A stretch of 64,000 bases of DNA, taken from NCBI RefSeq assembly GCF_002119805.1, contig NZ_CP021059.1, forward strand, positions 806,001 through 870,000, in the 5' to 3' direction. The position numbers and the translations under genes were made by a program. The notes under the pieces were generated by a model, which had not been told where the DNA came from, did not search any database, and saw nothing but the letters and a program-made list of their open reading frames with translations. This DNA is from Macrococcoides canis (GTDB lineage: Bacteria > Bacillota > Bacilli > Staphylococcales > Staphylococcaceae). This document shows, piece after piece, positions 9,780-32,912 of this stretch. Numbering within the stretch: the stretch's first letter is position 1; every line of letters starts with the position of its first letter.

Positions 9780-9808
9780 TATATACTGACAGAAAATTTT
9801 AGTATATA
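9780..9808. promoter_or_regulatory. inverted repeat in the atl upstream region
   Basis: TATATACT (9780-9787) and AGTATATA (9801-9808) form 8-bp arms around a 13-bp spacer, 41 nt upstream of the atl start. Minus-strand -10-like hexamers (TATACT, TATAAT) overlap the arms. It may be a regulator site or simply an A/T-rich promoter; no certain -35 was found. Confidence 0.35.
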
Positions 9809-9925
9809 CACTTATGAATTTGTAATATTCCCTTAACATTTGATACACCAAATTTACACGACGATTACTCCCTGATCATTATCAATTTATATATCGACTA
9901 AAGAATTAAAGTTGTACATAAAAAA

Positions 9926-9948
9926 GGACCTATACTATGTATAGGTCC
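9926..9948 (-). terminator. terminator of the LCP/DUF2538 unit
   Basis: A perfect 10-bp stem (GGACCTATAC and its complement) with a TAT loop. Read leftward it is followed by a T-tract (CCTTTTTTATG). Confidence 0.85.
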
Positions 9949-9950
9949 AT

Positions 9951-9974
9951 ATATTATTATTATTATTATTATTA
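9951..9974. repeat. ATT trinucleotide microsatellite
   Basis: About eight ATT/TTA units lie between the stop codon of the DUF2538 gene and its terminator, touching the stop. Slippage there would alter only the 3' untranslated part or the final codon context. Confidence 0.8.
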
Positions 9975-10442: not shown

Positions 10443-10453
10443 AGGCGCCTCCT

Positions 10454-11620
10454 TTAATATGTCGATGTATCTAACGGTTCTTCAACACTTAATTCACTAT
10501 TCTGATTGTTTTCTGGTAATACAGTTTCAGTACTGTTCTCAGGCGCTGGGGAAGGGGACTCGCTACTCGTATCTCTATTATCAAAAGTCTCCTGAACTTC
10601 ATCTCTGTCCAGCTCCATCAACGGAATGAGATCATTATAAAGCTCACGTACCTGATAATCCAGCAGTTCATCTTCTTCCGTCATCTTAAGCTCCAGGTCC
10701 TTATGCAGTAATTTAGAAATATCATAGACATCTTCCATTACAGGATTATAATAATAGACACCGTTATACATATAATCCGTACCTTTAAGCTGACGCTGCT
10801 TGAACTTTACATCATTTGAAGAATAATACTGTGCCATCGCACTAATATTATCGAAAGTTAAATTATGCTTCGCATTGTTACCAACAATCTCAACGAGCTC
10901 ATCCAGCTTGCTGATTGAACCAGAGTCTTTCGCTTTCTTCGCCAGTGCAATAATCATCTCCATCTGACGCTTACCACGACCAAGGTCCGTATCTACGCTT
11001 CTGCTTCTCGCAAGAGCTAAAGCTTCATTACCATTCAGCAGACGACGACCTTTCTTTATCTTGATTCTGCCGTGGTCATTCTTCGTCGGTTCGTCGATAT
11101 CGAACGGTACATCAAACTCAATCCCGCCAAGCTCATCGACAACATCAACGAACGCCTGCATATTTACTCTCACATAGTAATCGACAGGCACATTGAACTT
11201 CTGCTCGACAGCATGAGCAGAACTTTCAGGACCCCCTTCAGCATGCGCATGCGTAATCTTATCATACATCTTTACAGAAGGAATGTAACTTAAAGTATCA
11301 CGCGGAATACCAATCAGTCGGACTTGTTTGTCATCTCGGTTAAATGTCGCGAGAATCATAGAATCCGTACGCGCCTGACTTGTCTTCTGACCATTATCGC
11401 GGCGGGCAGGACTATCATCGATACCGAGGAAAAGTATAGAGAAATTATCTACGGAAGGGTCGATCGTCTTATCGCGCAGTTGAGATTTTTCGTATGCTTT
11501 ATTATATGATGTATCGATAGCAGACTTTGTTGAATTATATAAATAAGCTGCATAAGTGACTGGTACTGCAATTAGGCTGAGTGATAATAATATAAGCATC
11601 CATTTAAATATTCTATTCAT
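10454..11620 (-). CDS. LytR-CpsA-Psr (LCP) family wall glycopolymer transferase
   Basis: A 388-residue membrane-anchored protein: a short cytoplasmic N-terminus, one transmembrane helix (about residues 5-28), then the extracellular LCP domain. Conserved parts include LFLGIDDSPARRD, RTDSMILATF, and IGIPRDTLSYIP near residues 60-115, and ALALARSRSVDTDLGRGKRQ near 205-225 with the polyprenyl-phosphate-binding Arg and Asp residues. The last 50 residues are an acidic Ser/Pro/Glu-rich tail. LCP enzymes move undecaprenyl-pyrophosphate-linked polymers to peptidoglycan, which fits the polysaccharide genes starting 300 nt away on the other strand. An in-frame TTG start is rejected; ATG at 11620 has AGGAAG at 7-nt spacing. 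Confidence 0.9.
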   Translation of the reverse strand: MNRIFKWMLILLSLSLIAVPVTYAAYLYNSTKSAIDTSYNKAYEKSQLRDKTIDPSVDNFSILFLGIDDSPARRDNGQKTSQARTDSMILATFNRDDKQVRLIGIPRDTLSYIPSVKMYDKITHAHAEGGPESSAHAVEQKFNVPVDYYVRVNMQAFVDVVDELGGIEFDVPFDIDEPTKNDHGRIKIKKGRRLLNGNEALALARSRSVDTDLGRGKRQMEMIIALAKKAKDSGSISKLDELVEIVGNNAKHNLTFDNISAMAQYYSSNDVKFKQRQLKGTDYMYNGVYYYNPVMEDVYDISKLLHKDLELKMTEEDELLDYQVRELYNDLIPLMELDRDEVQETFDNRDTSSESPSPAPENSTETVLPENNQNSELSVEEPLDTSTY

Positions 11621-11657
11621 TGATACACTTCCTATTTTCAAATTAATAAACCATTCA

Positions 11658-11686
11658 ATTATATAGGTATACTTGAAATATTACAA
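11658..11686 (-). promoter_or_regulatory. promoter of the LCP gene
   Basis: On the minus strand TTGTAA (11681-11686), a 17-bp spacer and TATAAT (11658-11663), 38 nt before the start codon. It lies in the 309-nt gene-free gap 11621-11929, which otherwise holds only the divergent wecC promoter, a leader inverted repeat and A/T-rich sequence. Confidence 0.7.
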
Positions 11687-11794
11687 TTTAAAATTATTGA
11701 TAATTATACTTAAAGATAAACTTTATTGCTATTCTATTATATATTATGATATATAATGTCTTAACAGATAAGGGATTGTAACACGTTCGAATTA

Positions 11795-11823
11795 TTGTAA
11801 ATCCCAGTAGAATTATGTATACT
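11795..11823 (+). promoter_or_regulatory. promoter at the head of polysaccharide system A
   Basis: TTGTAA (11795-11800), a 17-bp spacer ending in TG, and TATACT (11818-11823). It predicts a leader of about 100 nt before the first UDP-ManNAc dehydrogenase gene. Confidence 0.7.
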
Positions 11824-11866
11824 AAAGGTTAGAATTTATGAGGATGAATTAAGAAACAATATAGAG

Positions 11867-11895
11867 ATATCTTGCTTTGTAAAATAACAAGATAT
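11867..11895 (+). other. inverted repeat in the wecC leader
   Basis: ATATCTTG (11867-11874) and CAAGATAT (11888-11895) could fold in the transcript 35 nt before the start codon. There is no following T-tract, so it is not a terminator. Role unknown. Confidence 0.4.
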
Positions 11896-11929
11896 TAAAT
11901 ATAGTACTATAATAAAAGGATGGATATTA

Positions 11930-13186
11930 ATGAAAATTACAACAATTGGACTTGGCTACATTGGTTTACCTACATCTATTATGTTCGCAAAACATGGGGT
12001 TGATGTTGTAGGAGTAGATATTAAACAAGAAGCAGTAGATAAATTAAATAACGGACAGATTCATATTGAAGAACCTGGCTTACAAGAAGCGTTAGAAGAG
12101 GTACTAGCTTCAGGTAAATTTAAAGCATCTACAACACCTGAAGAAGCAGACGCTTATATTATTGCGGTACCTACACCAAATAACAACGATGAACATAAAT
12201 CATGTGATATCTCAATCGTGATGTCTGGCGTTGAAAGTATTGTACCTTTACTTAAAAAAGGAGATACAGTAATCGTTGAGTCAACAATCGCTCCACGTAC
12301 AATGGATGACCATGTGAAGCCTTATTTAGAGTCTAAAGGATTTGTAATTGGTGAGGATATTTATTTAGTGCACTGTCCAGAACGTGTATTACCAGGACAA
12401 ATTATGCATGAATTAATTTATAACAACCGTATTATCGGTGGAATTACACCTGCATGTATAGAAGCAGGTAAACGTGTGTATGGAACATTCGTTAAAGGTG
12501 AAATGATCGAAACGCAGGCAAAGACTGCTGAGATGTCTAAATTAATGGAAAACACTTACCGTGATGTAAATATTGCGCTTGCAAATGAACTTGCAAAAAT
12601 CTGCAATCATTTAGAAATTAACGTTAATGATGTAATTGAAATGGCTAATAAGCACCCACGTGTTAACTTACATACACCAGGTCCTGGCGTAGGTGGACAC
12701 TGTCTAGCAGTTGATCCGTATTTCATTATTGCAGAGTCACCGGAGAATTCACCATTAATAAAGCTTGCACGTGATATCAATGTGTCAATGCCTGAGTACG
12801 TTGTAAATCACACGAAAGAAATCTTATCTAAGCTAGGTGGAAATAAAGTCACTGTGTTTGGTTTAACATATAAAGGTGATGTGGATGATATTCGTGAGTC
12901 ACCTGCATTTGATATTTATGAAATGTTAACAGAGTCTAAATATGAAGTTGTTGCATTTGATCCTCATGTGAATCAGGAATTTGTTGAAAAAGATATGGCA
13001 AAAGCAGTTAAAGACAGCGATTTAGTATTAATATTAAGCGATCATTCTGAATTTAAACAGTTAACTGATGCTGATTTTGAAGGAATGAGAAATAAATATA
13101 TTCTTGATACTAAGAATGTTGTTAAAACTAAAGATGAATTTAAAGAAGTTAAATACTATAACTTCGGTAATTTATACAATTTATAA
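11930..13186 (+). CDS. wecC: UDP-N-acetyl-D-mannosamine dehydrogenase (WecC/Cap5O type), copy 1
   Basis: A 418-residue UDP-sugar 6-dehydrogenase. The N-terminal Rossmann motif GLGYIGLP is at residues 7-14, and the catalytic Cys is near 258 in GVGGHCLAVDP. The C-terminal UDP-binding domain has VFGLTYKGDVDDIRESPA near 305. It closely resembles S. aureus Cap5O throughout, which oxidises UDP-ManNAc to UDP-ManNAcA. The 2-epimerase that makes UDP-ManNAc is not in this window. It has its own promoter and is followed by a strong terminator, so it may be expressed partly apart from the genes after it. A close paralogue is at 36096-37358. Confidence 0.9.
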   Translation: MKITTIGLGYIGLPTSIMFAKHGVDVVGVDIKQEAVDKLNNGQIHIEEPGLQEALEEVLASGKFKASTTPEEADAYIIAVPTPNNNDEHKSCDISIVMSGVESIVPLLKKGDTVIVESTIAPRTMDDHVKPYLESKGFVIGEDIYLVHCPERVLPGQIMHELIYNNRIIGGITPACIEAGKRVYGTFVKGEMIETQAKTAEMSKLMENTYRDVNIALANELAKICNHLEINVNDVIEMANKHPRVNLHTPGPGVGGHCLAVDPYFIIAESPENSPLIKLARDINVSMPEYVVNHTKEILSKLGGNKVTVFGLTYKGDVDDIRESPAFDIYEMLTESKYEVVAFDPHVNQEFVEKDMAKAVKDSDLVLILSDHSEFKQLTDADFEGMRNKYILDTKNVVKTKDEFKEVKYYNFGNLYNL

Positions 13187-13193
13187 CTACAAC

Positions 13194-13224
13194 AACAGAA
13201 TACGTTTGTATTCTGTTTGTTTTT
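13194..13224 (+). terminator. intrinsic terminator between wecC copy 1 and the glycosyltransferase
   Basis: A perfect 10-bp stem (AACAGAATAC and complement) with a GTTT loop, followed by TGTTTTTT. It is placed 8 nt after the wecC stop and 17 nt before the next start codon, with no room for a separate promoter of the usual form after it. Confidence 0.85.
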
Positions 13225-13240
13225 TAACTAAGGAGTTTCT

Positions 13241-14428
13241 ATGAAAAGAATTTTGCTCATCTCACAAAACTTTTATCCTGAAATCGGTTCAGCAGCAAAC
13301 CGTATGAAAAATATATTTAATCATTTAGAAGAGCAGGGATATGATGTTTATATCTTAACAACACAGCCATCTTACCCGAACGAAAAAATGTATAAAGATA
13401 AAAAATACTGGAATGATCCATTTATTAATGGTATATCGGAAAACAAAGTGATTAGATTATCGATGCGTCATGAAAAGCAAAAGAAAAGTATGTCTTCTAG
13501 ACTTTATTACTATATTGAATTCATGCTGAAAGTTCATTACTTTGTCAGAAATACGGAAGAACATTTCGATTTGATCTACGTGACAAGTCCGAATATATTT
13601 GCGCCATGGGGGACATTATTTCTTCAGAAGGATTCTGCAACAGATAAGACGATACTCGAAATCAGAGATTTATGGCCAGATAGTGTGACTGCATTAGATA
13701 AGATCAATATTGATATATTTATGCCTATGCTAAAATTGATGGAAAAGCGTATGTATCAAAATGCAAAGAAGATTGTAGTGAATAATATGTCGTTTATACC
13801 GCATATTAATAAGTATGTTAAAAACAAAGATTTTCTATTTTTACCTAATGCGATTAATAATGAAGAACTTAATTTTCGACCGAAAAAAGAAACATTCAGT
13901 GTTGTTTATACAGGGAATCTAGGTTTTGCTCAAGATAATACACAGTTAGAAGAAATCGCTGTTGAACTTAATAGATTAAAAATTCCTTTCAATGCAATTG
14001 TATATGGTGTTCATGCGAATGAGTTCAGACAATTTGTAAATGATCAGCAACTTAAATATGTACATGTATATGAAACTTTGCCAAAATCAGAATGTCTTTC
14101 CTTTACAAGTGAACATCATATTGCACTTTCTATCCTTAAGCAGTCAGAAGTGTTTATGAATGTGCTCCCTGGAAAGGTTATCGATGCATTATGTATGGAA
14201 GTACCCGTCGTTACGAATTTAGGTGGTTTTACTAAAGAACTTATCCAGGATTATGAAGTGGGAATAGATATTGAATCAGCTACAACTGAAAAATTGATTG
14301 AGGCAATCTTAGAGTACAGAAATAATCCTGTTTTGCTAAGAAATCATACGGAGAATACAAAAAAAATTCGTTCTGAAATTTTTATGTGGGAGACAAATAT
14401 ACATAGACTAATTGATTTTATTAGTTAA
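13241..14428 (+). CDS. family 4 glycosyltransferase (WbuB-like)
   Basis: A 395-residue GT-B glycosyltransferase. The N-terminal acceptor domain begins with ILLISQNFYPEIGSAANRM and contains LEIRDLWPDSV near residue 147, a motif typical of WbuB-type family 4 enzymes. The donor domain has VVYTGNLGFAQDN near 223 and ends with a GKVIDALCMEVPVVTNLGG-type donor site near 310-328. It is cytoplasmic and probably adds one sugar to the undecaprenyl-linked repeat of system A. It is the first gene after an intrinsic terminator. Donor and acceptor sugars cannot be deduced. Confidence 0.8.
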   Translation: MKRILLISQNFYPEIGSAANRMKNIFNHLEEQGYDVYILTTQPSYPNEKMYKDKKYWNDPFINGISENKVIRLSMRHEKQKKSMSSRLYYYIEFMLKVHYFVRNTEEHFDLIYVTSPNIFAPWGTLFLQKDSATDKTILEIRDLWPDSVTALDKINIDIFMPMLKLMEKRMYQNAKKIVVNNMSFIPHINKYVKNKDFLFLPNAINNEELNFRPKKETFSVVYTGNLGFAQDNTQLEEIAVELNRLKIPFNAIVYGVHANEFRQFVNDQQLKYVHVYETLPKSECLSFTSEHHIALSILKQSEVFMNVLPGKVIDALCMEVPVVTNLGGFTKELIQDYEVGIDIESATTEKLIEAILEYRNNPVLLRNHTENTKKIRSEIFMWETNIHRLIDFIS

Positions 14429-14450
14429 ATAAATAAAAGAGGCCGCAATT

Positions 14451-15257
14451 ATGAAAATTATTATCGAATTGTTAAAAGAACAAATTCAAAACTTAAATCT
14501 TATTTGGAAGTTATCAATCTATAATCTAAAAAGTGAATACTCGAATCATTATCTCGGTGCATTCTGGAATATCTTACAGCCACTAATGCAAGTCATTATT
14601 TATTATATCGTTTTTGGTATGGGGTTAAGAGGTAATGCGCATAACGGAGATATGAACTATTTACTTCATTTAATCACTGGATTATTTCCGTGGATTTTTA
14701 TATCTCAAGCTATTAATGCAGGTTCAAACACGATTCATGCACAATTAGGTTTAGTAACAAAAATGAAGTTTCCTTCATCCGTATTATTATCTATTTCGTA
14801 TGTAATAAATTTTATTAACTTATTATTTACAACATTGATTATATTTTTAATTTCATATTTTAATCATTTTGTAACTTTTGGACATTACTTTGAGTTTCTA
14901 TATTTTATATTTGCATCTTACATGCTTATTTTTGCTTTTAATCTTATTATGAGTACATTAGTGATACTTGTGAGAGATACGAAGCAGATGCTGCAAAATG
15001 TTCTTAGAATGTGTTTTTTTGTAACACCAATCTTCTGGGATGCAGATACAGTTTCGCCTGTATTAAAAGTGATTACAATGCTCAATCCATTTGCTTATTT
15101 AATAGGAATATATCGTAACGCTTTTATCGAAGGTGAAGGAATGTTTTATGGAAATATGACGGATCATCTCTATTTCTGGACATTTACACTTTTACTATTC
15201 TATATTGGTGCACATATTCATTACCGATTCAAAAATCGTTTAGTAGATTATTTATAA
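14451..15257 (+). CDS. tagG: TagG-like polysaccharide/teichoic acid ABC transporter permease
   Basis: A 268-residue ABC-2-type permease with six predicted membrane helices. It resembles staphylococcal TagG along its length: NHYLGAFWNILQPLMQVIIY near residue 30, VLVRDTKQMLQNVLR near 170, a NPFAYLIGIYRNAF block near 210, and the end HYRFKNRLVDYL. Together with the ATP-binding protein at 19574-20527 it would form a TagGH-type exporter that flips a completed undecaprenyl-linked polymer. In staphylococci TagGH exports wall teichoic acid; the neighbours here suggest a different, possibly uronic-acid-containing polymer. No second tagGH pair lies in the window. Confidence 0.85.
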   Translation: MKIIIELLKEQIQNLNLIWKLSIYNLKSEYSNHYLGAFWNILQPLMQVIIYYIVFGMGLRGNAHNGDMNYLLHLITGLFPWIFISQAINAGSNTIHAQLGLVTKMKFPSSVLLSISYVINFINLLFTTLIIFLISYFNHFVTFGHYFEFLYFIFASYMLIFAFNLIMSTLVILVRDTKQMLQNVLRMCFFVTPIFWDADTVSPVLKVITMLNPFAYLIGIYRNAFIEGEGMFYGNMTDHLYFWTFTLLLFYIGAHIHYRFKNRLVDYL

Positions 15258-15270
15258 ATTGAGGTGCAAA

Positions 15271-16404
15271 ATGAAGTACTTATTAATTACGAACGCTTAT
15301 CCAAGTGAAGACAAAATTTATTCAAATGCATTTATCCATCGAAGAGTAAAGGCTTATCAACAGGCAGGTTTAGAGATTGAAGTTGTAGTAATGACAACAA
15401 AAGTAAAATTTGACGTTGAATATGATGGGGTTACTGTAAAATATCTCGATGAATACCAGATTGCAGATTATGTTAATAATCATCAATTTCATAAACTGTT
15501 GTTCCATTTTATGAATCTAAAGATGTTTCAGGCGATTAATATGATGCATACAGTGCCTCCAATAATTATATGGATGCATGGATTTGAAGCAGAACCTTGG
15601 TTTTCCAGATATTACAACTTTTTATCAAGTAAACAATCATTTTTAAATGTAATGGAAAGAAAAGATACCTATTTTGAAGAAGTAAAAGAGATGTTCCTGG
15701 CTTTGATGGATAAGAAGCAGTATGATGCGACGTTCATTTATGTGTCTAAAAGTTATAAGGAAAAATATGTGGACCCATATTTAGGTAGAGTACCAGAACA
15801 TTATTATATTATTCATAATCCTATCAATGAATCACTCTTTCCATATCGTCAGAAAAAAGCTGAAGATCGCTTTCATATTTGCAATATTAGACCATATACA
15901 GCTAAAAACTACGCGAATGATATTACAAGAGATGTAATTCTAGGTTTAAGCAAGAAGAAATATTTTGATAAGCTTACATTTGAACTTCATGGGGATGGGC
16001 CTTTATTTGATGAAATCACAAAGCCACTTGAAAGATTCAGTAATGTTACTTTAAACAAGGCATTTATACAACAGTATGAAATTCATGAAATTCATGCTAG
16101 AAATGGTATCTATCTCGGACCAACGCGACATGATTCACAAGGTGTGTCGTTATGTGAGGCAATGAGTAGCGGTCTCGTACCTATTTCAAATGATATTGGT
16201 GCGATTAAGGAATTTATAGCAGATAAAGAAACAGGACTTGTTGCTGGCAGAGATGATGTTGAAGGGATGATTGAGCGTATTGACTTTCTAATTAACCAAC
16301 CTGACGAGTTCCTGCGTCTCAGTTATAATGCGGCACAAGAGATTAGAAGATTAACTGGAGAACAAATTATAACTAAAAAAGAGCTAGAGGTGATTAAAGG
16401 ATGA
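15271..16404 (+). CDS. family 4-like glycosyltransferase
   Basis: A 377-residue GT-B protein. It starts with YLLITNAYPSEDKIYSNAF; FIHRRVKAYQQAGLEIEVVV is typical of the N-terminal acceptor domain. The donor domain has HGDGPLFDEITKPL near residue 245 and LGPTRHDSQGVSLCEAMSSG near 285-305, with the E of the EX7E-type donor site. An in-frame TTG upstream is rejected since GAGGTG lies between it and the ATG at 15271. Overlaps the next gene by 4 nt. Probably adds a sugar in the system A repeat unit. Confidence 0.8.
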   Translation: MKYLLITNAYPSEDKIYSNAFIHRRVKAYQQAGLEIEVVVMTTKVKFDVEYDGVTVKYLDEYQIADYVNNHQFHKLLFHFMNLKMFQAINMMHTVPPIIIWMHGFEAEPWFSRYYNFLSSKQSFLNVMERKDTYFEEVKEMFLALMDKKQYDATFIYVSKSYKEKYVDPYLGRVPEHYYIIHNPINESLFPYRQKKAEDRFHICNIRPYTAKNYANDITRDVILGLSKKKYFDKLTFELHGDGPLFDEITKPLERFSNVTLNKAFIQQYEIHEIHARNGIYLGPTRHDSQGVSLCEAMSSGLVPISNDIGAIKEFIADKETGLVAGRDDVEGMIERIDFLINQPDEFLRLSYNAAQEIRRLTGEQIITKKELEVIKG

Positions 16405-16760
16405 CTAATGAAGTGAACTGGCAAGCAGCTTATAATGATTTAAAGTCTCAAATCGAATTTATGATGGAAGACACAAGACAGTTACTAGTAGATAATCCAG
16501 TTAAATTAAAGATTAATAAGATTGTAGTAGATAAAGATGCAACCTTCTCTTCTTTAATTGTTGATGCATCTGGGGATACGATGATGTATGCTTGTTATCT
16601 CTATCATCAAAAGTCAAAGAAGGAACTGGTAAAGACAAAATATCAATATAGTAATACATTCGTGTTCCAACTTCCGAAAGGGAAGTACTTTGCACGTCTG
16701 TTTGTAAAAAATCGTATGACGGGTCAGAAAGAAATCGACACGATTTCATTTACTGTGTAA
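16401..16760 (+). CDS. small predicted beta-sandwich protein of unknown function
   Basis: A 119-residue protein with no signal peptide or membrane segment. After a short helical start (residues 1-30) the rest looks all-beta: alternating hydrophobic strands, then YQYSNTFVFQLPKGKYFARL and a final ISFTV strand, resembling an immunoglobulin-like or fibronectin-like fold. I do not recognise a named family. The 4-nt overlap with the glycosyltransferase before it and the 10-nt gap to the next gene place it firmly in the operon. It may be a domain split off from a larger polysaccharide-assembly protein; this is inference. Confidence 0.65.
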   Translation: MTNEVNWQAAYNDLKSQIEFMMEDTRQLLVDNPVKLKINKIVVDKDATFSSLIVDASGDTMMYACYLYHQKSKKELVKTKYQYSNTFVFQLPKGKYFARLFVKNRMTGQKEIDTISFTV

Positions 16761-16770
16761 GGGGGATACT

Positions 16771-17409
16771 ATGGCTTACGAACTGATTACACGCTTTCCT
16801 GAGGAGACAATTAAACTCATAATAAGAGAAGGAATTGATGAAAGTCTATTAAAGCATATCACTCAGCACGTAGATGATATTGAGATATTACTGTCTGAAA
16901 GTTTTTCTTTTGAAGATAGTATGAAACAGCTCGAAAAGTTAGTTCAAGCAACAAATGCTGAAACTTTAACTTTGCTCATTCCAGTTTCGTTGTTTGATAG
17001 CTTCAAAGAGAGTATCAAAATTGAATATGAATTAACAGAGATAGGTAATAACGCTGCTCAAGTGTTTGTTACGTATAATTTAAAAAATAGAACGCTATCC
17101 TCTATCAATAACAGCAACATGATTAAGTGGTATCAAATTGAGCGTTATGAAAGTCTGGAAGAGTATATTACAGGAACAGTGAATCGTACAATATATAAAG
17201 AGATGAAACAGTACAGAAGTCAACTTGGCTGGGCAAATGCTAAGATTGAGCGATATGAATCGAAAGTTCAGGCAGGCATTCGTGAAGATGAAGCAGCGAA
17301 GTATAATGATTTGATGAATAAGTATAAAGATACTTTAAAACGATTAAATAATCTGCGTAATTCTAGACTCGGTAAATTACAGATTAAATATTGGGATTTA
17401 AAAGGATAG
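16771..17409 (+). CDS. coiled-coil protein of unknown function in the TagGH locus
   Basis: A 212-residue soluble protein. Residues about 1-115 are a mixed alpha/beta domain of unknown type; about 125-195 look like a charged coiled coil. The end, LRNSRLGKLQIKYWDLKG, has the 'SRLGKLxxKYW' signature that often closes glycosyltransferases and polysaccharide-assembly proteins in Gram-positives. A strong AAGGGGGA ribosome site is present. The C-terminal coiled coil plus basic aromatic tail suggests a scaffold or a membrane-surface partner of the glycosyltransferases, as for the 67-residue protein at 21699-21902. Function not established. Confidence 0.65.
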   Translation: MAYELITRFPEETIKLIIREGIDESLLKHITQHVDDIEILLSESFSFEDSMKQLEKLVQATNAETLTLLIPVSLFDSFKESIKIEYELTEIGNNAAQVFVTYNLKNRTLSSINNSNMIKWYQIERYESLEEYITGTVNRTIYKEMKQYRSQLGWANAKIERYESKVQAGIREDEAAKYNDLMNKYKDTLKRLNNLRNSRLGKLQIKYWDLKG

Positions 17410-17418
17410 GTGAAAATA

Positions 17419-19602
17419 TTGAACTATCAGCATGATGCAAAATTAAGATATGATGATCTGATTCGTGTAAGAAAAAAAATTAGTGCCATACATGAAGGAC
17501 TAACGATCATTACTGAAACGCTAGATTATAATCATATACAATCACATCTATACTATATTGTAGTACCTAAAAAAGAAGCTATTTATGAACAGCTTATTCG
17601 CAATCATCTATACGACAATGTATTGATATTATCACCTGCAAAAGAACTTAATATTAAAGAAGTTCTAAAATATGTAAGAACTTCACATTTGACGTTCGTA
17701 AAAGATATTAAAGATCTTATATTTTCTGATGAACCGTTACATTTTAGATCGAACTATATCTATATAATGCAGCGCATTATGAATAGCGAGTTGAACCATG
17801 TACTTAAAGATGAAGAGACTAATGAAGATGAAGAAGATACAACGCCTGCACAGATTAAAACGGAAAAGCAGACGTCTAAAGTAACGCATCCTAACGTTGT
17901 AAAAATTCATGTTGATATTGAATCTTTAAATGAATATGAAGTGCAGGACAATACTGTAGAATATCCAATGAATCATTTACTTACTAAGCTTTATGAGTTT
18001 TACGGAATTATTATACCTAAACAATTTTTAGAGACCCTTCGTTTGAAAGCGTCAATTACCGATAATCGTTTCGAAGCTATAACTGAAATGATATGCAATC
18101 ATGCGTTTGTGATTACACCAATTGCCGACATTCAGTTTACTGCTGAAGTTCGCAACCTTCTTTACACTAATGAATTAGAGACATCGTCTTCTTTAAATTA
18201 TCTTAACGAAGTAGCACTGTATCGTAATACTACGAGTGTAAACTCATTCATACAGTATGTGGCGGATATTTTATTACTCAGAATTGGTAATAAGATTGAT
18301 CAAGGTGAAACGAAGCTGGAGGCAGAGCTGGATAAACTGAAATCGTTTAAAACGATTAACCTTGAAACGTTGAATAAAGGTCGTGCAGACGAACTGGTTA
18401 TCGCTTACTGCTTCCCTCCATATAATGATACTTCTGGTAACGTCATGGCAAAGCGTATCTATATGGAAGGAAATAAAGTAGATATTATCTCGAACAATAT
18501 GGATAGAATCCGTAAAAAGGATTACTCATTAGAAGGAATTGCTAAAGGACTAATTGATACGAAGTTTATTGTTGATGCACCACAAGCATTCAGTAGCTAT
18601 GAAAGTATCGAGATGTTTACTGAATTTGGTATGGAAATCTTTGAAACGTTTAAGAATAAATATAATAAATTATATAGCCGTGCAATGTTTCCTGCATCAC
18701 ATTTTCTTGCTTATGAAATCAAACTGAACAAACCTGAGATTTATTGGCGTGCAGAGTTTTCTGATCCATTATTAACAGACGTGAAATCTGAGAATAGATA
18801 TTCCCCGATCAAGTCTAATGAATACATTGAACATTTAAAACAGACTGTACCTGAATCCTATCAATCTTTAATTGATGATAACGTATTTAATGTGTGTGAA
18901 ATATTACCGCTTGCATATGCCGATGAGCTTATTTTCACAAACAAGCTGCAACTCGAATATATTATCAAACGATTTGACAATGATATTCAGGAATCGATTC
19001 GTGAACGTGCAATAATTTCTGCACATCCTACATTGCCAGAATCATTCTATCATCTGGAACAAACGAACTATGAATATGATGAGTCACAAATCAATTTTGC
19101 ATATTTCGGTAACTTCTATGATACGCGCGGATTTAGAGAGATTGAATTAATGTGTAAATACTTGATTTTAGATGGCATCACGAACTTCAAGGTTAATGTC
19201 TTCACGAATATAAATGCGAAGACTAATGGATTCTATAATAACAGCGACTTTAAAGATTATATTAAATTAAATCCATACTTAAATTACTTTGAATTCTTAA
19301 ATTTAACTGAACAGATGGATATTCTCATGATTTATGATGCGCATACGAAAGGGATTAAAGAAGTAAATCCTTATTTACCATCTAAACTCAGTGATTATCT
19401 CGGAAGTACAGCTTTCACGATGGCATTTATCGAAGAAGATAGTATACTATCTGAACAAGTTAATGACAAATTGTATAAAGTAGATATGAATCATTTTTCT
19501 AAATACGGAGAAACCGTTCGTGAAATAAATAAGCATCTTAAAAAAGAGTTAACATTGAAAGAGGAAGTGTCTTATGGAGACAGTAAAAGTAAAGGTCAAT
19601 AA
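17419..19602 (+). CDS. large putative glycosyltransferase-like protein, shares C-terminal module with the 702-aa protein
   Basis: About 727 residues, counted from TTG 17419, which has AGGTG at 6-nt spacing; GTG 17410 is the alternative. Residues to about 330 match nothing I recognise and include an acidic linker (DEETNEDEEDTT). From about 340 to the end it aligns with the C-terminal half of the protein at 21903-24011: YCFPPYNDTSGNVMAKRI, IISNNM, a WRAEFSDPLL block, ADELIFTNK, AHPTLPESFYH, FAYFGNFYDTRG and DAHTKGIKEVNPYLPSKLSDY. FGNFYDTRG and the late PYLPSKLSDY segment resemble donor-domain features of GT-B enzymes. Overlaps tagH by 29 nt. Probably a system A polymerising or decorating enzyme; exact activity unknown. 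Confidence 0.7.
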   Translation: MNYQHDAKLRYDDLIRVRKKISAIHEGLTIITETLDYNHIQSHLYYIVVPKKEAIYEQLIRNHLYDNVLILSPAKELNIKEVLKYVRTSHLTFVKDIKDLIFSDEPLHFRSNYIYIMQRIMNSELNHVLKDEETNEDEEDTTPAQIKTEKQTSKVTHPNVVKIHVDIESLNEYEVQDNTVEYPMNHLLTKLYEFYGIIIPKQFLETLRLKASITDNRFEAITEMICNHAFVITPIADIQFTAEVRNLLYTNELETSSSLNYLNEVALYRNTTSVNSFIQYVADILLLRIGNKIDQGETKLEAELDKLKSFKTINLETLNKGRADELVIAYCFPPYNDTSGNVMAKRIYMEGNKVDIISNNMDRIRKKDYSLEGIAKGLIDTKFIVDAPQAFSSYESIEMFTEFGMEIFETFKNKYNKLYSRAMFPASHFLAYEIKLNKPEIYWRAEFSDPLLTDVKSENRYSPIKSNEYIEHLKQTVPESYQSLIDDNVFNVCEILPLAYADELIFTNKLQLEYIIKRFDNDIQESIRERAIISAHPTLPESFYHLEQTNYEYDESQINFAYFGNFYDTRGFREIELMCKYLILDGITNFKVNVFTNINAKTNGFYNNSDFKDYIKLNPYLNYFEFLNLTEQMDILMIYDAHTKGIKEVNPYLPSKLSDYLGSTAFTMAFIEEDSILSEQVNDKLYKVDMNHFSKYGETVREINKHLKKELTLKEEVSYGDSKSKGQ

Positions 19603-20527
19603 CGTATCTAAAGCATATCCGGTCAATCAGAGTAAAAGTCAGAAAATACTGGATGTCCTTAAGTTCTGGCAGCATAAGACGCATGATAATGTGTATTATG
19701 CATTAAAAGATATCAGCTTCGAAGTGAATGCAGGAGATAGTGTTGGACTCGTTGGTTTGAACGGAGCCGGTAAATCCACACTATCAAATCTTTTAGGAGA
19801 GGTCATCTCACCTACTGCAGGGAGTATTGAAATAAATGGGCGCAGCTCGTTGATTGCAATATCCGCAGGATTAAATAATGAATTATCAGGAGAAGAAAAT
19901 ATTCGCATGAAATGTCTGATGCACGGGCTTACAGAAGAACAGATTAATGCCCGTTTTAATGATATTGTCGATTTCTCTGAACTCGGAGACTTCATTAAAA
20001 AGCCAATTAAAACATATTCTAGTGGGATGAAATCACGACTGGGCTTTGCGATTGCTGTTCATACAGATCCGGACGTTCTTATAGTGGATGAAGCATTGTC
20101 TGTAGGTGATGACACATTTTCTAATAAATGTATTGAACGTATGAAAGAATTTCAAAAAGAAGGGAAGACCATCTTCTTCGTCAGTCATTCTGTCGGTCAA
20201 ATACAGAAAATGTGCAATAAAGCGATATGGATTCATTACGGCAAAATTGAAGCTCAAGGAGAGTGTATTCCGACAGTTGGTTTATATGGAAGGTTTATCA
20301 GAAAATATAATCAGTTTGATAAAGAACAGCAGCTTGCATACAAAGAAGAACAACTTCAAAATCAAATAAGATCGATCAACGAGATAGAAGTAAATAAAGA
20401 AAATGTATCTAAAAATACATTATTCGGCTTGATTGGTGTTACAGGATTATTTGTATTCAGTATTCTATCGCAATTAAATGTAATACCACTATCTCACTAT
20501 TTAAATATGTTAAAAGGAATGTTTTAG
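19574..20527 (+). CDS. tagH: TagH-like polysaccharide/teichoic acid ABC transporter ATP-binding protein
   Basis: A 317-residue ABC ATPase. It has Walker A GLNGAGKST near residue 64, the SSGMKSRLGF signature near 147, and Walker B PDVLIVDEALSVGDD near 168, followed by an H-loop SHSVGQIQK. The full N-terminal 230 residues resemble staphylococcal TagH (NVSKAYP, VIAISAGLN-type and FSELGDFI motifs). Unlike S. aureus TagH (about 264 aa), it has a C-terminal extension with a basic linker and a hydrophobic segment (about 285-310) that may anchor it in the membrane. Partner of the permease at 14451-15257, from which it is separated by four genes. Confidence 0.85.
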   Translation: METVKVKVNNVSKAYPVNQSKSQKILDVLKFWQHKTHDNVYYALKDISFEVNAGDSVGLVGLNGAGKSTLSNLLGEVISPTAGSIEINGRSSLIAISAGLNNELSGEENIRMKCLMHGLTEEQINARFNDIVDFSELGDFIKKPIKTYSSGMKSRLGFAIAVHTDPDVLIVDEALSVGDDTFSNKCIERMKEFQKEGKTIFFVSHSVGQIQKMCNKAIWIHYGKIEAQGECIPTVGLYGRFIRKYNQFDKEQQLAYKEEQLQNQIRSINEIEVNKENVSKNTLFGLIGVTGLFVFSILSQLNVIPLSHYLNMLKGMF

Positions 20528-20529
20528 CC

Positions 20530-21699
20530 GTGAAAAAAGTGACCATGTTTGTCTGGAACAACTTTACCAATGATGCGAGAGTGACGAGAGAAGCAAAGAC
20601 ACTTCAATCAGATTATGATGTCACTGTCATCGCTAAACGTGAAAATAATGAACGTCATATCCCACTTAAACAAAGCTATAAGGAAGGGTATAATGCTGTA
20701 CGCAAACATAAAACAGAATTACCGAACTTTATAGTGAATCGCATTAATAATAACAAATTAAAAACGATAGTTTTAAAGCATCTACCGAATGCCTTCTTAA
20801 TGATGAAAATGATTCAAGAAGGTTATAAACAAGACGCAGATATTTATCACAGTCATGACCTGAATACTTTAATTCAAGGAATTGCCTGCGCAAAATTGAG
20901 AACAGATAAACGTTTACTAATCTTTGATTCTCATGAAGTAAATACAAGCCGTACGAACTATAAATCGGGTCTCGTCGGTGCAATTGAAAAGTTCCTTATT
21001 CGATTTACGGATCGTACGATTGTAGAGAACGAAACACGTGCAACTTACCACGAGAAGCTATATGGATATAGACCGATGTCGCTTCATAACTACTCAGAAT
21101 ACTATAATATAGATGAAGTTGAAGCAGTAGACCTTCACCTTAAGTATGATAAAACATTTATTTATCAAGGCGGACTACAAGAGGGCCGTGGTTTAGAACG
21201 ACTTCTTCGTGCGTTCAAAAAAGCGGATATACCTGCGAATTTACTGATGGTTGGTGATGGCAAGATTCGTCATCAACTTGAATCATTAGCAAAATCTTTA
21301 AACCTTCAGGACAAAGTTACATTTACTGGTCGTGTTCCGTATGAATCTTTACGATCGTATACAAAAAGTGCATATGCAGGATTTCAAATACTTGAAAATG
21401 TGAATTTCAATCATTATTCTGCATCAAGTAATAAACTTTATGAGTATATGATGGCGCATATTCCTGTTATTGCCACAAATCTTCCTGAAATAAAAAATGT
21501 AGTTGAAAAAGAAGGTATAGGACTTATCATAAAACATGATTCAGAAGAAGAACTTACAGACGCAATTCGTAAAATGTTTGAAGATGAAACGATGAGAAAT
21601 GCGATGAAAGAACGAATGAAAGTTAGTAAAGAACAGTATAACTGGGAGAAGGAAAAACAGAAACTTCTTAATTTATATCATGACCTTGAGGTGAGCTGA
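20530..21699 (+). CDS. family 4 glycosyltransferase
   Basis: A 389-residue GT-B glycosyltransferase. The N-terminus (VTMFVWNNFTNDARVTREAK) is of the 'NDARVxxEAxxL' type seen in family 4 enzymes. The donor domain has FIYQGGLQEGRGLERLLRAF near residue 213, LMVGDGKIRHQLE near 240 and SSNKLYEYMMAHIPVIATNL near 300-325, with the expected donor-binding Glu. GTG start; AAGGA lies 11 nt upstream and a second GTG three codons on is an alternative. Its stop overlaps the start of the next gene (ATGA). Probable sugar transferase of system A. Confidence 0.8.
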   Translation: MKKVTMFVWNNFTNDARVTREAKTLQSDYDVTVIAKRENNERHIPLKQSYKEGYNAVRKHKTELPNFIVNRINNNKLKTIVLKHLPNAFLMMKMIQEGYKQDADIYHSHDLNTLIQGIACAKLRTDKRLLIFDSHEVNTSRTNYKSGLVGAIEKFLIRFTDRTIVENETRATYHEKLYGYRPMSLHNYSEYYNIDEVEAVDLHLKYDKTFIYQGGLQEGRGLERLLRAFKKADIPANLLMVGDGKIRHQLESLAKSLNLQDKVTFTGRVPYESLRSYTKSAYAGFQILENVNFNHYSASSNKLYEYMMAHIPVIATNLPEIKNVVEKEGIGLIIKHDSEEELTDAIRKMFEDETMRNAMKERMKVSKEQYNWEKEKQKLLNLYHDLEVS

Positions 21700-21902
21700 T
21701 GACAGAGCAAGAGAAGAAGTTACTTGTGGATAGTTTAAATAATGAAAGATATGCATTAAATCAGCTTAAATATAAAGAGATGGAAATTGCACTGTTAAAG
21801 AAAAAATTAAGTTTGTATGAAAATAGATGGCATAAATTAATGAATCTTCTGCCAGTGAAAGTATTACGCTATGCACTACGCTATATAAAGGGGCTGAAGT
21901 AA
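21699..21902 (+). CDS. 67-residue coiled-coil protein of unknown function
   Basis: A short, charged protein: residues about 3-45 are a heptad-like helix (KKLLVDSLNNERYALNQLK, then KEMEIALLKKKLSLYENRW), then a basic-hydrophobic tail ending LRYALRYIKGLK. It overlaps the preceding stop by 4 nt and abuts the next start, so it is a genuine operon member with GAGGTGAG as ribosome site. Its layout (coiled coil, then basic amphipathic end) parallels the C-terminus of the 212-residue protein at 16771-17409. It may tether or dimerise a glycosyltransferase; unproven. Confidence 0.65.
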   Translation: MTEQEKKLLVDSLNNERYALNQLKYKEMEIALLKKKLSLYENRWHKLMNLLPVKVLRYALRYIKGLK

Positions 21903-24011
21903 ATGCGTATAAGAAAAAGAATTCAGGAAATCGATCAATTACTATCTAAAATTGAACGTAACGAACCTTTATATATTGAAGATACAGTAGAAGAAAGCGT
22001 CCAGCCAATAAAGAATAAAGGAATATCTGTTATCGTCCCTTTATATAAAAGCCGAAAATATTTGCAACAACTAGTTGAAAATATTAACGCTTTTAAAAGT
22101 ACGACGTTTGAAGTTATCTTTGTGCTTAATGGAGATACAGTTTCTGTTGAAGAAGATACAGAAACCTTAAATTCACTAAAAAAAGAATTTAAGTATCACA
22201 TCATTGAATCAGAGCAAGGCGCATCTATTGCACGCAATAAAGGAATAGAGGCTGCTCAATATTCTCATACATTATTACTGGATGCAGATGATACACTACA
22301 TCCACACACATTATTTGAGTTAAGTAAACATCTCGATTTCGCAAATATTTCTGTATTTCATCTTTATAATGTTCATAATGAAAAAATAGAACAGGATAAT
22401 ATAATAGAAAAAGAAAAAAACCAGCTTAAAGGACAACTGTCATCTAACTATATGAAACTGACGAAAATATTATCAATGAACGGCGCGAAGCTGATACCGA
22501 CACATTACTTAAAATCGGTCCATTTCGATGAAACACTGACATCTGGAGAAGATGTTGTACTTATGATGGAGATTATCAAGCGCTTCAGACCGATAATCAA
22601 TATTATTGATAATAAAGCATGTATCTATTATAGACATATGACCGATCAATCGGTAAGCAGACAGTCGCTGAGTTATGCATTTAATGTGACAGATAGAATA
22701 AAAGTATTACAGGCACTCGCTAACTTACTCGATTCTGAAGACGATATTACTATTAGACAGCTCATCATGAACCGTATGGATGCGCAAGCTGGTTTCATCA
22801 ATAAATACTTACATTATGATTCTACAGTTTATCAGCAAGTCATTCAGGAATTACAAAGCATACACTCTGAATATATTCCGTATCAAACTGTAAATAAAGG
22901 ACTCGCGCATACATTATATGTCGGGTATTGCTTTGCGCCGTATAATGATACAAGCGGCGTTATTATGGGAAAACGTATTGCAGAACGCAAAGTACCATGC
23001 GATGTCATATCTAATAATATGAGTGATGTGAGAACGACAGATTACACATTGAACGAACTTTCAGACCCTTATATTGCAAAACATTATGGCATTAATAGCA
23101 AATCTTCATTTAGTAACTACCAGCTGATGAATGAATTCGTGCAGCAAGGCGCTAAAAAGCTAAAGAACAGCACATATAAAGAAATCTATTCCAGAGTACT
23201 ATGGCCAGCCAGTCATCTATTAGCATGGAAACTAAAGACAAATAATACAAGATGGATTGCTGAGTTTTCCGATCCCGTACTATACGATATTAAGAACAAA
23301 CAGCGACAAAGTAAAGTACCCTTTACCTATGTCAAAAAAATAAAAAAACAGGCACCAGAAAAATATCATCCATACATCAATGACAACCTATACAATCTTG
23401 TAGAACTGCTCCCATTTATGTTTGCAGATGAAATCGTATTTACTAATAAAAAGCAGATGAAACAGATGATAAAAAGATTCACAGAAGATATACAGCAAGA
23501 AATTATCTCTAAATCGGTTATTAATCCACACCCGACACTAGAAGCGCATTACTATGAAAAACAATGCGCACTGATTACAGTAGATAAAGATAAATTTAAT
23601 ATTGGTTATTTCGGTAATTTCTATGAAACAAGAGGACTTAAAGAAATACAAGAACTCGTTGAACAACCGGAGCTTATCGAAAAACTCAATCAATCGAACT
23701 TACCATTAGAATTTCACATCTTTACGAGCAACCCAGTAAATGTGAGACAGATGATCAGTCAATATGAAATGACGCAAGTATATGTGCATGAAGCATTACC
23801 ATACTTTGAATTTTTAAATGCAACGAAACAATTCGATGCGCTTATTGTAATGGACGCACATACTAAAGGAATCAAAGAAGAGAATCCATATCTACCAAGT
23901 AAGTTTAGTGACTACAAAGGAAGCGGAGTTCCTGTAATTGCATACTGTGAAGCAGGAAGCCCGATGGATGAGATGGAATCGATTCAAGGGATAAAAATTA
24001 GAATGAAATAA
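21903..24011 (+). CDS. two-domain glycosyltransferase (GT2 domain fused to GT-B-like module)
   Basis: A 702-residue protein. Residues about 40-150 are a GT2 (GT-A) domain: ISVIVPLYKSRKYLQQLVEN, FVLNGD, ASIARNKGIEAA and LLLDADDTL, the DxD-type metal site; a SGEDVVLMMEII block follows near 215. Residues about 330-702 are a second module shared with the 727-aa protein upstream (YCFAPYNDTSG, ISNNM, IAEFSDPVLYD, FADEIVFTNKKQ, NPHPTLEAHYY, GYFGNFYETRG, DAHTKGIKEENPYLPSKFSDY). A bifunctional transferase that adds two residues, or a polymerase, is likely. It is the last gene of system A, ending at a terminator. Confidence 0.75.
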   Translation: MRIRKRIQEIDQLLSKIERNEPLYIEDTVEESVQPIKNKGISVIVPLYKSRKYLQQLVENINAFKSTTFEVIFVLNGDTVSVEEDTETLNSLKKEFKYHIIESEQGASIARNKGIEAAQYSHTLLLDADDTLHPHTLFELSKHLDFANISVFHLYNVHNEKIEQDNIIEKEKNQLKGQLSSNYMKLTKILSMNGAKLIPTHYLKSVHFDETLTSGEDVVLMMEIIKRFRPIINIIDNKACIYYRHMTDQSVSRQSLSYAFNVTDRIKVLQALANLLDSEDDITIRQLIMNRMDAQAGFINKYLHYDSTVYQQVIQELQSIHSEYIPYQTVNKGLAHTLYVGYCFAPYNDTSGVIMGKRIAERKVPCDVISNNMSDVRTTDYTLNELSDPYIAKHYGINSKSSFSNYQLMNEFVQQGAKKLKNSTYKEIYSRVLWPASHLLAWKLKTNNTRWIAEFSDPVLYDIKNKQRQSKVPFTYVKKIKKQAPEKYHPYINDNLYNLVELLPFMFADEIVFTNKKQMKQMIKRFTEDIQQEIISKSVINPHPTLEAHYYEKQCALITVDKDKFNIGYFGNFYETRGLKEIQELVEQPELIEKLNQSNLPLEFHIFTSNPVNVRQMISQYEMTQVYVHEALPYFEFLNATKQFDALIVMDAHTKGIKEENPYLPSKFSDYKGSGVPVIAYCEAGSPMDEMESIQGIKIRMK

Positions 24012-24014: not shown

Positions 24015-24042
24015 GATGATGCTTAGTGCGTCATCTTTTTTT
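24015..24042 (+). terminator. terminator closing polysaccharide system A
   Basis: A stem GATGATGC/GCGTCATC (one G-T pair) with a 5-nt loop, followed by seven Ts. It separates system A from the CapAB-led system B. Confidence 0.85.
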
Positions 24043-24170: not shown

Positions 24171-24863
24171 ATGGAAGAAGTAATTGATATTTCGAAGGTT
24201 TTGAATTTGTTGAAAAGGAATTGGAAGTTCATTGTTGGTCTATCATTATTAGGAGCATTAATTGCAGCTGCAATAAGTTTCTTCTTGATCAAACCGACGT
24301 ATTCAGCATCGACGCAGATACTGGTTAATAGTGGTAATGTGAATAATCAACTTGAAGTACAGGCGAATCAAGCTGATTTACAATTAATAAATACTTATAA
24401 CGAAATAATTAAATCTCCTGTTATTTTGGATAAAGTGGCTAAAAATTTAGATATTCAAAATAATTTAGGTTCGAAAATAAGTGTGTCTAATTTAAATCAA
24501 TCTAAAGTCATAACAATTAGTGCAATAGCATATAATTATACAGATGCTGCTAAAATAGTAAATGAAACTGCAAAAGTTTTTTCGAAAGAAGTTGGAAAAA
24601 TCATGAAAACGGATAATGTAACTATTTTAACAAAAGCAGATGAGAAATTAGCAGTTAATCCAATTAAACCTAAGCCAATAATGAATTCTATTATTGGGGG
24701 AATATTGGGTTTACTAGTTTCATTAACATTCTTATTTATTAAAGACTTGCTAGATAAAAGAGTAAAAAATGAAGAAGATGTAAAAAATGTTTTAGACTTA
24801 CCGGTAATAGGTATGATTCCAAATTTTTACGATGATAAAGATGTTAAGGGAGAGTCAAAATAA
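24171..24863 (+). CDS. capA: capsule chain-length regulator and kinase activator (CapA/YveK, Wzz family)
   Basis: A 230-residue membrane protein with two transmembrane helices (about residues 18-40 and 173-195) and an extracytoplasmic domain between them; Wzz family features are at each end (VIDISKVLNLLKRNWKFIV, and PIKPKPIMNSIIGGILGLLV, the proline-rich segment before TM2). In Firmicutes this protein pairs with a separate cytoplasmic tyrosine kinase and activates it; here the kinase gene overlaps by one base. AGGAGGAAG precedes the ATG. First gene of system B; sets polymer length and links it to phosphorylation. Confidence 0.9.
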   Translation: MEEVIDISKVLNLLKRNWKFIVGLSLLGALIAAAISFFLIKPTYSASTQILVNSGNVNNQLEVQANQADLQLINTYNEIIKSPVILDKVAKNLDIQNNLGSKISVSNLNQSKVITISAIAYNYTDAAKIVNETAKVFSKEVGKIMKTDNVTILTKADEKLAVNPIKPKPIMNSIIGGILGLLVSLTFLFIKDLLDKRVKNEEDVKNVLDLPVIGMIPNFYDDKDVKGESK

Positions 24864-25567
24864 TGTTGAAAAAAAATAGATTAAAAAATAGCAATAAAGA
24901 AAGGAAATTAATAACTCATTTATTACCTAAATCAACTATAAGCGAGCAATACAGAATGATAAGATCAAATATAATGTTCTCTAGCATTGATATTCAAATC
25001 AAAAAAATTGTTATTACTTCAGCAGCTCCTTCAGCCGGGAAATCAACTACAGCAGCTAATATTGCAGTTACTTATGCTCAAGCAGGAAAAAAAGTTCTAT
25101 TGATAGATGGAGATCTTAGAAAGCCAACAGTACAATATACTTTCGAAACTAAAAATGTTTTTGGTCTATCTAATGTAATTACTGAACAAATTAGGTTAGA
25201 GGAAGCAATACAAAATACTAATATTGAAAACTTATCAATTTTAACATCAGGTCCAATCCCACCTAACCCAAGTGAATTATTATCATCCAAAAAGTTTTCT
25301 GAGAAACTAAGACAACTAGAAGAGTATTTCGATATGATAATTATAGATACTCCACCGATTTTAGCGGTTACTGATGCGGTAATACTTTCTACATTAGTGG
25401 AAGGGACTATTATGGTTATTAACGTTGAAAATAATAATAGAGAACAATTAGTTAAAGCTAAAGATTTACTTATAAAATCAGATGCTAATTTATTAGGAGT
25501 GGTTCTTAATAATATTGAAAAATCATCGAAAGAAAATTATTACTATTATGAATATTATGGTAATTAG
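24863..25567 (+). CDS. capB: bacterial tyrosine kinase CapB
   Basis: A 234-residue BY-kinase. Walker A is at about residues 53-62 (SAPSAGKSTT), Walker A' at about 77-85 (LLIDGDLRKPT) and Walker B at about 155-162 (MIIIDTPPI). The C-terminus ends in a tyrosine cluster (ENYYYYEYYGN), the autophosphorylation site. The TSGPIPPNPSELL block is also typical. It lacks the membrane part, which is supplied by CapA. No dedicated tyrosine phosphatase (CapC/Wzb) gene follows; the next gene is the CapD-like dehydratase. Confidence 0.92.
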   Translation: MLKKNRLKNSNKERKLITHLLPKSTISEQYRMIRSNIMFSSIDIQIKKIVITSAAPSAGKSTTAANIAVTYAQAGKKVLLIDGDLRKPTVQYTFETKNVFGLSNVITEQIRLEEAIQNTNIENLSILTSGPIPPNPSELLSSKKFSEKLRQLEEYFDMIIIDTPPILAVTDAVILSTLVEGTIMVINVENNNREQLVKAKDLLIKSDANLLGVVLNNIEKSSKENYYYYEYYGN

Positions 25568-25590
25568 TTTTTCGTTAAAGGAGTATATGT

Positions 25591-27384: not shown

Positions 27385-27405
27385 TATTAGGAACGAGGTA
27401 TAGAT

Positions 27406-32910: not shown

Positions 32911-32912
32911 TA

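Follow-up and report, generated by a model that had tools for sequence, protein, structure and literature searches.

What does a macrococcus use as its wall polymer when the genes of classical teichoic acid synthesis are not found? The question is raised by a gene unit at about 11.9 to 24.0 kb of a 64,000-nucleotide stretch of Macrococcoides canis DNA (assembly GCF_002119805.1, contig NZ_CP021059.1, positions 806,001 to 870,000), which we call the window and whose numbering is used throughout. Macrococci are said to have been described by Kloos in 1998 as having no cell-wall teichoic acids, with M. caseolyticus as a possible exception. The unit combines an ABC exporter with several glycosyltransferases, among them two large enzymes of 730 and 702 amino acids (P730 and P702) that share a C-terminal module, and with three small proteins of 119, 212 and 67 amino acids (P119, P212 and P67). 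We favour, with some reserve, the reading that it makes an ABC-transporter-dependent wall polysaccharide, probably acidic and containing N-acetylmannosaminuronic acid (ManNAcA), which would replace the classical polyol-phosphate wall teichoic acid in this organism. Among the literature matches listed, no paper was recognised on this locus or on a macrococcal substitute for wall teichoic acid. The excerpts of PMC10400458, PMC6008420, PMC9781867 and PMC8629997 do not describe the locus; the first of these excerpts counts dlt (D-alanylation) genes among the flexible genes of a Macrococcus subcluster.

Gene content, export and teichoic acid markers

All genes between 11930 and 24011 run in the same direction, on the forward strand, in the order dehydrogenase, GT4a, TagG-like, GT4b, P119, P212, P730, TagH-like, GT4c, P67 and P702. 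The first product (11930..13186) is a nucleotide-sugar dehydrogenase (TIGR03026, 466.7 bits against a cut-off of 189.8), probably acting on UDP-N-acetylmannosamine (UDP-ManNAc): its best equivalog is the UDP-ManNAc dehydrogenase PRK11064 (420.2 bits, cut-off 459), and the TuaD model gives 146.6 bits at a cut-off of 700. An ABC-2 exporter pair is present, consisting of a TagG-like permease (14451..15257; PF01061, 46.4 bits, cut-off 26.9) and a TagH-like ATPase of 317 amino acids (19574..20527; PF00005, 80.2 bits, cut-off 25). The ATPase is of a divergent type and stays under both TagH equivalog cut-offs (278.4 of 320 bits for NF010066, 333.2 of 538 bits for NF010065). There are three GT4-type glycosyltransferases. 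GT4a (13241..14428) has GT4 and WcaI-like matches, none reaching the cut-off, and its homologues recur in many of the fetched TagGH-like loci, including loci without the module. GT4b (15259..16404, with a TTG start at 15259 and an ATG at 15271) and the 389-amino-acid GT4c (20530..21699), which is likewise recurrent in TagGH-like loci, match PF00534 with 46.1 and 86 bits, respectively (cut-off 26.4). Upstream lies a divergent neighbour on the reverse strand (10454..11641), an LCP-family (LytR_cpsA_psr) glycopolymer-peptidoglycan ligase with 141.7 bits for PF03816 (cut-off 24.6) and 121.7 bits for TIGR00350 (cut-off 62.3). It is because of the ManNAc-dehydrogenase-like enzyme, synthesis enzymes that are all of glycosyltransferase type, the TagGH-like exporter and the neighbouring LCP ligase that an acidic wall polysaccharide is proposed. 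The sugars, the enzyme activities, complex formation, the linkage to the wall and the replacement of teichoic acid are what we infer from these genes.

The locus recurs in related genomes. Searching 157 genomes of the order, we found a strong match to the module (E < 1e-180) in 33 of them; P730 is present in 27, P702 in 19 and both in 17. In all 17 genomes with the pair the order is TagG-GT4b-P119-P212-P730-TagH-P67-P702 in one direction, with intervening genes in some. An LCP homologue lies within the fetched stretch of 14 of these 17 loci, one of the 14 being only 30% identical.

For teichoic acid genes we searched 21 hand-picked genomes with PF04464 (TagB/F), PF03808 (TagA), TIGR01518 (TagD) and NF010066 (TagH). 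The genome of the window (G000; 99.99% complete, one contig) gives no match to any of the first three. In total seven genomes have none of these markers (G000, G002, G005, G010, G012, G013 and G108), and each has exactly one TagH-like gene at E <= 1e-60, scoring below the family cut-off. This sole gene sits in the eight-gene locus in G000, G010 and G108; the locus that holds it in G012 and G013 has P702 and, in place of P730, a protein of the P572 type. The other 14 genomes have all three markers together with two or three TagH-like genes. PF04464 also matches three of 14 control genomes. Two PF00953 enzymes occur in all 21 genomes, as expected for MraY plus TagO, and were not assigned to either. 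Over the whole order, 30 of the 157 genomes have no TIGR01518 match at E <= 1e-20, including five of nine in the genus of the window and five of six in group g2.

The unit resembles the wall teichoic acid system (TagGH/TarGH with TagO-A-B-F-D) in its ABC-2 permease and TagH-like ATPase, the two PF00953 enzymes and the nearby LCP ligase. It differs in that the genome has no TagA, TagB/F or TagD match, the synthesis enzymes of the unit are glycosyltransferases only, and TagH is below both equivalog cut-offs. With teichuronic acid synthesis (Bacillus Tua) it has in common that an acidic wall glycan would be made with GT4 and GT2 glycosyltransferases and a nucleotide-sugar dehydrogenase. Tua export relies on a Wzx-type flippase, whereas the window unit would use an ABC transporter, and when the genes of the locus were scanned the TuaC, TuaD, TuaG and TuaH equivalogs all scored far under cut-off. 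A polymer containing ManNAcA is known from Micrococcus luteus.

Several observations weigh against an acidic substitute for teichoic acid. The dehydrogenase falls 39 bits short of the UDP-ManNAc dehydrogenase cut-off, and no homologue of it lies within the fetched stretch of 12 loci of group f4. Since 14 of the 21 genomes keep the three markers beside a below-cut-off TagH-like gene of this type, the locus is not tied to the loss of teichoic acid. A strict tie between the module and that loss was rejected: most P730 genomes keep TagD, and G002 and G005 have neither markers nor module. LCP ligases attach capsules too, and the unit adjoins a capsule cluster.

Could the unit then make a capsule, and not a teichoic acid substitute, jointly with the Wzx/Wzy genes at 24.2-39.7 kb? 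We consider this unlikely. Wzz-, tyrosine-kinase- and CapD-like genes follow the unit directly in the window and in loci L026 and L030 and lie close by in L034 and L080, and Wzy and Wzx families are found downstream, but the unit has an exporter of its own, and in the 12 f4 loci the fetched stretch contains nothing homologous to the Wzz, kinase or CapD of the window. The capsule is also favoured by cap clusters in macrococci, described in the excerpt of a genome paper (PMC6008420); against it, in several genomes that lack the teichoic acid markers the only TagH-like gene found belongs to the unit. In addition, a terminator-like hairpin with a T run (24015..24035, forward strand) separates P702 from the Wzz/Wzy capsule genes. 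Here the position is the argument, because six such sites were found against 4.9 expected by chance. The promoter scan as a whole was not above chance (58 found, 67.2 expected).

The neighbouring genes at 24171-39718 form a separate Wzx/Wzy-type capsule cluster with Wzz, tyrosine kinase and CapD-like genes (these three by eye), Wzy_C and Polysacc_synt. This cluster also encodes a zinc dehydrogenase-GFO/IDH fusion, a heparinase II/III-like protein and Bac_transf, and a second nucleotide-sugar dehydrogenase at 36096-37358 is about 69% identical to that at 11930. On the other side, both on the reverse strand, a DUF2538 protein (9972-10442; 312 bits) adjoins the LCP ligase and has a homologue in the fetched stretch of eight of the 12 f4 loci that carry both P730 and P702, and a 1210-aa protein (6107-9739) with GW domains and a glucosaminidase domain is likely a wall hydrolase.

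The two large transferases

P730 (17410..19602) and P702 (21903..24011) share a C-terminal module of about 365 residues (about 360-370) at 40% identity (BLASTP E 5e-90). The preliminary description had recognised this module by a series of motifs, all of which are indeed present in both proteins. It had placed P730 at 17419-19602; the reading frame holds, but the first possible start is a GTG at 17410, right after the stop of the 212-aa gene, and 17419 is an in-frame TTG. The closest named genome is that of Macrococcoides caseolyticum DSM 20597, with 87% identity over the P702 module.

No Pfam or NCBIfam match reaches the curated cut-off for P730, and for P702 only the GT2 domain gives one. 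No PDB chain is matched at E <= 1 by a profile built from 19 module sequences. In the AlphaFold model of P730, 28 of the 39 ten-residue blocks of residues 321-710 have a pLDDT of at least 70 (mean over the whole chain 58.8), and in Foldseek the module (about residues 323-690) matches GT-B enzymes, the first being the retaining GT4-type MshA 3c48 (E 1.4e-11, probability 1.00). The TM-score by query length is only 0.19 for MshA and 0.17-0.23 across the rows shown, so that the domain arrangement is uncertain. From these matches the module is predicted to have a GT-B fold nearest to retaining GT4-type enzymes. The earlier view of an unrecognised module thus stands for the sequence family, which has no name in the libraries searched (no Pfam, NCBIfam or PDB-sequence match), yet not for the fold, which is a standard one. 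With MshA and BshA the module has the fold in common; it differs in sequence (about 10% identity), the TM-scores are low and P730 has no Pfam GT4 match. Multi-domain polymerases such as chondroitin synthase and the Actinobacillus capsule multienzyme 8qoy (among the Foldseek matches of the module, E 5.5e-9) also carry two transferase domains per chain, but the window module has no sequence match to a PDB chain and the unit has a paired paralogue with one motif-less domain.

Across 27 P730-clade and 19 P702-clade rows, 63 module positions are invariant, including R573, K659 and D662, and fixed differences between the clades are few (for example V330/Y, A393/S and F427/W). This pattern fits two retained GT-B sites of differing specificity. 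GT4-type enzymes carry an EX7E motif; placed without a structure-based alignment, D662 may occupy its second position, with no acid at the first.

The N-terminal part of P702 is a GT2 (GT-A) domain with intact motifs (LDADD, ARNKG and SGEDV) that matches PF00535 with 58.6 bits (cut-off 23.3) and chondroitin synthase 2z87 with E 1.5e-5. The corresponding part of P730 (residues 1 to about 320) is probably a decayed GT2 domain homologous to it. Motifs were tabulated for 58 homologues (58 of 59 rows were kept in the tree, the 215-aa fragment L120_13 being left out), and 27 rows were assigned to the P730 type from this table, before the tree was built. With the P730 type and Actinopolymorpha set aside, DxD, ARN and GED are all kept in each of the 28 remaining rows. 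In the P730-type rows ARN and GED (ED) are missing in 27 of 27 and DxD in 26; the exception, which counts against our reading, is L080_10 in G108 with D-T-D at the DxD place. The P730 of the window has neither DxD nor ED. The three Actinopolymorpha rows are also degenerate in the GT2 motifs. A maximum-likelihood tree of the module alone (58 rows) unites the 27 P730-type rows in one clade with support 100/100.

The N-termini of the two proteins had been called unrelated, a claim that is probably wrong. The BLASTP match between them already reaches N-terminally beyond the module, and hhalign gives a probability of 97.3% (E 2.6e-11) for the N-terminal domains of 27 P730-type sequences against an 'active' profile of 28 sequences (28 of the 31 non-P730 rows, the three Actinopolymorpha rows being left out). 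The GT2 part alone, with cut points from a joint alignment of both groups and profiles aligned separately, yields 96.4% (E 1.2e-9) over 182 collinear columns. The linker is homologous too (85.2%, E 6.1e-6), and the Macrococcoides-side subset alone (five rows) matches the P702-type GT2 with 89.1%. Non-GT2 controls give at most 0.5% for the pooled P730-type profile (nine controls for the N-terminal domain, five for the GT2 part).

That the N-terminal domain of P730 is instead an unrelated scaffold domain seems quite improbable to us, although part of the data points that way. This region has no Pfam match and no confident AlphaFold model (pLDDT mostly <50). Two subclades taken alone match the P702-type GT2 weakly, with 5.2% for f4 (12 rows) and 20.3% for the Staphylococcus type (10 rows; the label is inferred and stands for nine g5 genomes and one g3 genome). 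An independent GT2 profile was made from five P855-type proteins, those matching the start pattern; it does match the P702-type GT2 (98.8%) and gives only 0.4% and 1.7% for the P730-type N-terminus and 5.3% for the Macrococcoides side. An unrelated scaffold is difficult to reconcile, however, with the collinear match to the P702-type GT2, the homologous linker and the low control values. Decay of a GT2 domain is the likely reading, because the P730 N-terminus collinearly resembles the GT2 domain of its own paralogue and is too drifted for another GT2 profile.

Small partner proteins and exchangeable cassettes

P119 (16401..16760), P212 (16771..17409) and P67 (21699..21902) have no Pfam or NCBIfam match at the curated cut-off, in agreement with the earlier statement that they belong to no recognised family. 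P119 is predicted to consist of an N-terminal helix and an Ig/FnIII-like beta-sandwich: its model has a helix at 7-31 and seven strands (mean pLDDT 67.9), and the Foldseek matches, of pilin, FnIII and C2 type, are weak, with one of them at E <= 0.001. Weak family matches to NOMO_5th (nine of 15 members, best E 2.3e-4) and Y_Y_Y (seven of 15, best E 4.6e-4) are consistent with such a sandwich. Wzt_C was unsupported (E 0.081 in one of 15 members), and YPD1-like matches of P119 (E 0.034) as well as a SAS-6-like match of P212 (E 5.4e-4) were taken as chance.

The proteins had been proposed to form a dedicated polymer-assembly complex with the large transferases. The gene set is supported by the conserved order in 17 of 17 genomes, which adds TagG, GT4b and TagH (tagH had already been named) to the five genes first proposed; P119, however, follows GT4b and not the module. 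GT4b lies directly upstream of 29 of 30 P119-profile matches (at most 19 of the 30 had seeded the profile; one of the 29 is a broken GT4b in L041), and the remaining match is part of a 650-aa protein. P119 had been missed by the ORF caller in L084 and L092 and was placed separately, with L084 re-read. Strong P119 matches (E < 1e-29) occur in 32 of 157 genomes, including all 27 with P730 (Fisher p 1.2e-25, a value that ignores kinship). The five without P730 (G003, G012, G013, G023 and G066) all have GT4b-P119 followed by a P572-type protein, so that one small gene varies partly independently, an outcome that the preliminary description had named among its refuting conditions.

P212 has a variable N-terminal domain, a probable coiled coil (by eye) and the C-terminal tail LRxSxLGKLQxxYW. 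In the 17 P730-clade loci that also have P702, the gene immediately before P730 encodes a P212-like protein with this tail, and TagH directly follows P730 in 24 of 27 P730-clade loci. A tail of the form ~LRxSxLGxxQxxYW is common to the P212 group and to otherwise different proteins of 186-576 aa. It sits 0-8 residues from the C-terminus in all 40 matches (11 of which had seeded the tail profile). Two of the 40 are themselves module enzymes; for 36 of the other 38, the next gene directly downstream encodes either a module enzyme (20 cases) or one of the P855 type (16 cases). We suggest from this placement that the tail may act as a docking signal. Pointing the other way, the remaining 10 P730-clade loci have at this place a protein of 235-239 aa with no tail match and 11-19% identity to P212, and the tail profile at E 0.001 misses at least three proteins encoded ahead of P855-type genes (L085_5, L096_4 and L140_4). 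P67, also a probable coiled coil (by eye), has a basic C-terminal end, and an ORF of 67-99 aa that is P67-like by sequence or place lies directly upstream of P702 in 19 of 19 P702-clade loci. The P67-like ORFs of L032 and L034 and the P212-place protein of L042 were missed by the ORF caller and read from gaps; the pooled protein sets exclude L031 and L047, which duplicate L026 and the window. In the WbdA/WbdD system a coiled coil serves as a ruler.

Where P702 is missing from a P730 genome (10 cases), there is a P855-type enzyme accompanied by a tail protein of its own, the copy in L041 being broken. Because of such P572-type and P855-type loci, a recurrent core (dehydrogenase, TagG, GT4a, GT4c and TagH), not complete everywhere, appears to carry exchangeable elongation cassettes. 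One locus (L154 in G066, 2300-16956), from a g5 genome without a TagD match, has the recurrent core with two other cassettes, one of them GT4b-P119-P572 and the other a P855-type gene preceded by one for a 310-aa protein. In L041 (G081) the dehydrogenase, GT4a, GT4b, P119 and P855-type genes appear broken, unless the assembly is at fault.

Outside the order the module is rare: it was found in 14 of 398 genomes of a class sample (10 of them from this order, one a fragment) and in two of 398 of a phylum sample, one being the genome of the window. L117 and L119 (G206 and G342), outside the order, have TagG, TagH, GT4c, dehydrogenase, GT4b, a module enzyme and a tail protein side by side, and their GT4b bears an N-terminal extension of about 160 residues. 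Three Actinopolymorpha loci (L027, L028 and L029) each encode a single module protein whose GT2 domain is partly degenerate, and BLAST found no TagG or TagH homologue within the fetched stretch. Among viral contigs 45 candidate stretches were obtained, none of them confirmed, and a search of plasmid DNA returned eight records, all covering the TagH gene only.

It is very improbable that, instead of making a main-chain polymer, the unit modifies some other surface polymer or attaches sugars to surface proteins. Several glycosyltransferases with no recognised polymerase among them would suit this, as would the 14 of 21 genomes in which a full set of teichoic acid markers occurs alongside a TagH-like gene of this type, but TagG- and TagH-like genes within the conserved order of 17 of 17 genomes point to export of a finished chain.

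A possible assembly route and its meaning

If the unit does make an acidic wall polysaccharide, a TagO-like enzyme would load undecaprenyl phosphate, and GT4a and GT4c would build a primer. GT4b with its beta-sandwich partner P119, together with the P730/P702 pair, would elongate the chain on the cytoplasmic side, after which the TagG/TagH-like transporter would export the whole chain and the LCP ligase join it to peptidoglycan. Both the GT2 and the GT-B domain of P702 look catalytically intact, and this enzyme probably polymerises a repeat that has two linkages. P730 would be an old paralogue; as it keeps the conserved GT-B residues and has lost the GT2 site, it likely acts as a one-site partner, supplying a third specificity and a structural role. 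P212 and P67 may be adaptors, each encoded directly upstream of its enzyme.

A wider proposal, which we put forward as tentative, is that those Staphylococcales lineages which have lost the classical wall teichoic acid depend on an acidic wall polysaccharide that is exported by an ABC transporter and synthesised by an undescribed family of transferases. A half-dead paralogue and dedicated coiled-coil adaptors sharing a C-terminal docking tail would then put together exchangeable polymerase cassettes around a single recurrent core for priming and export. The tail motif may mark which adaptor pairs with which polymerase. P730 is a natural example of how a glycosyltransferase paralogue appears to have lost one of its two active sites and is retained with its partner in 17 genomes. 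For the macrococci themselves, the locus is a concrete candidate for the wall polymer that would stand in place of teichoic acid.

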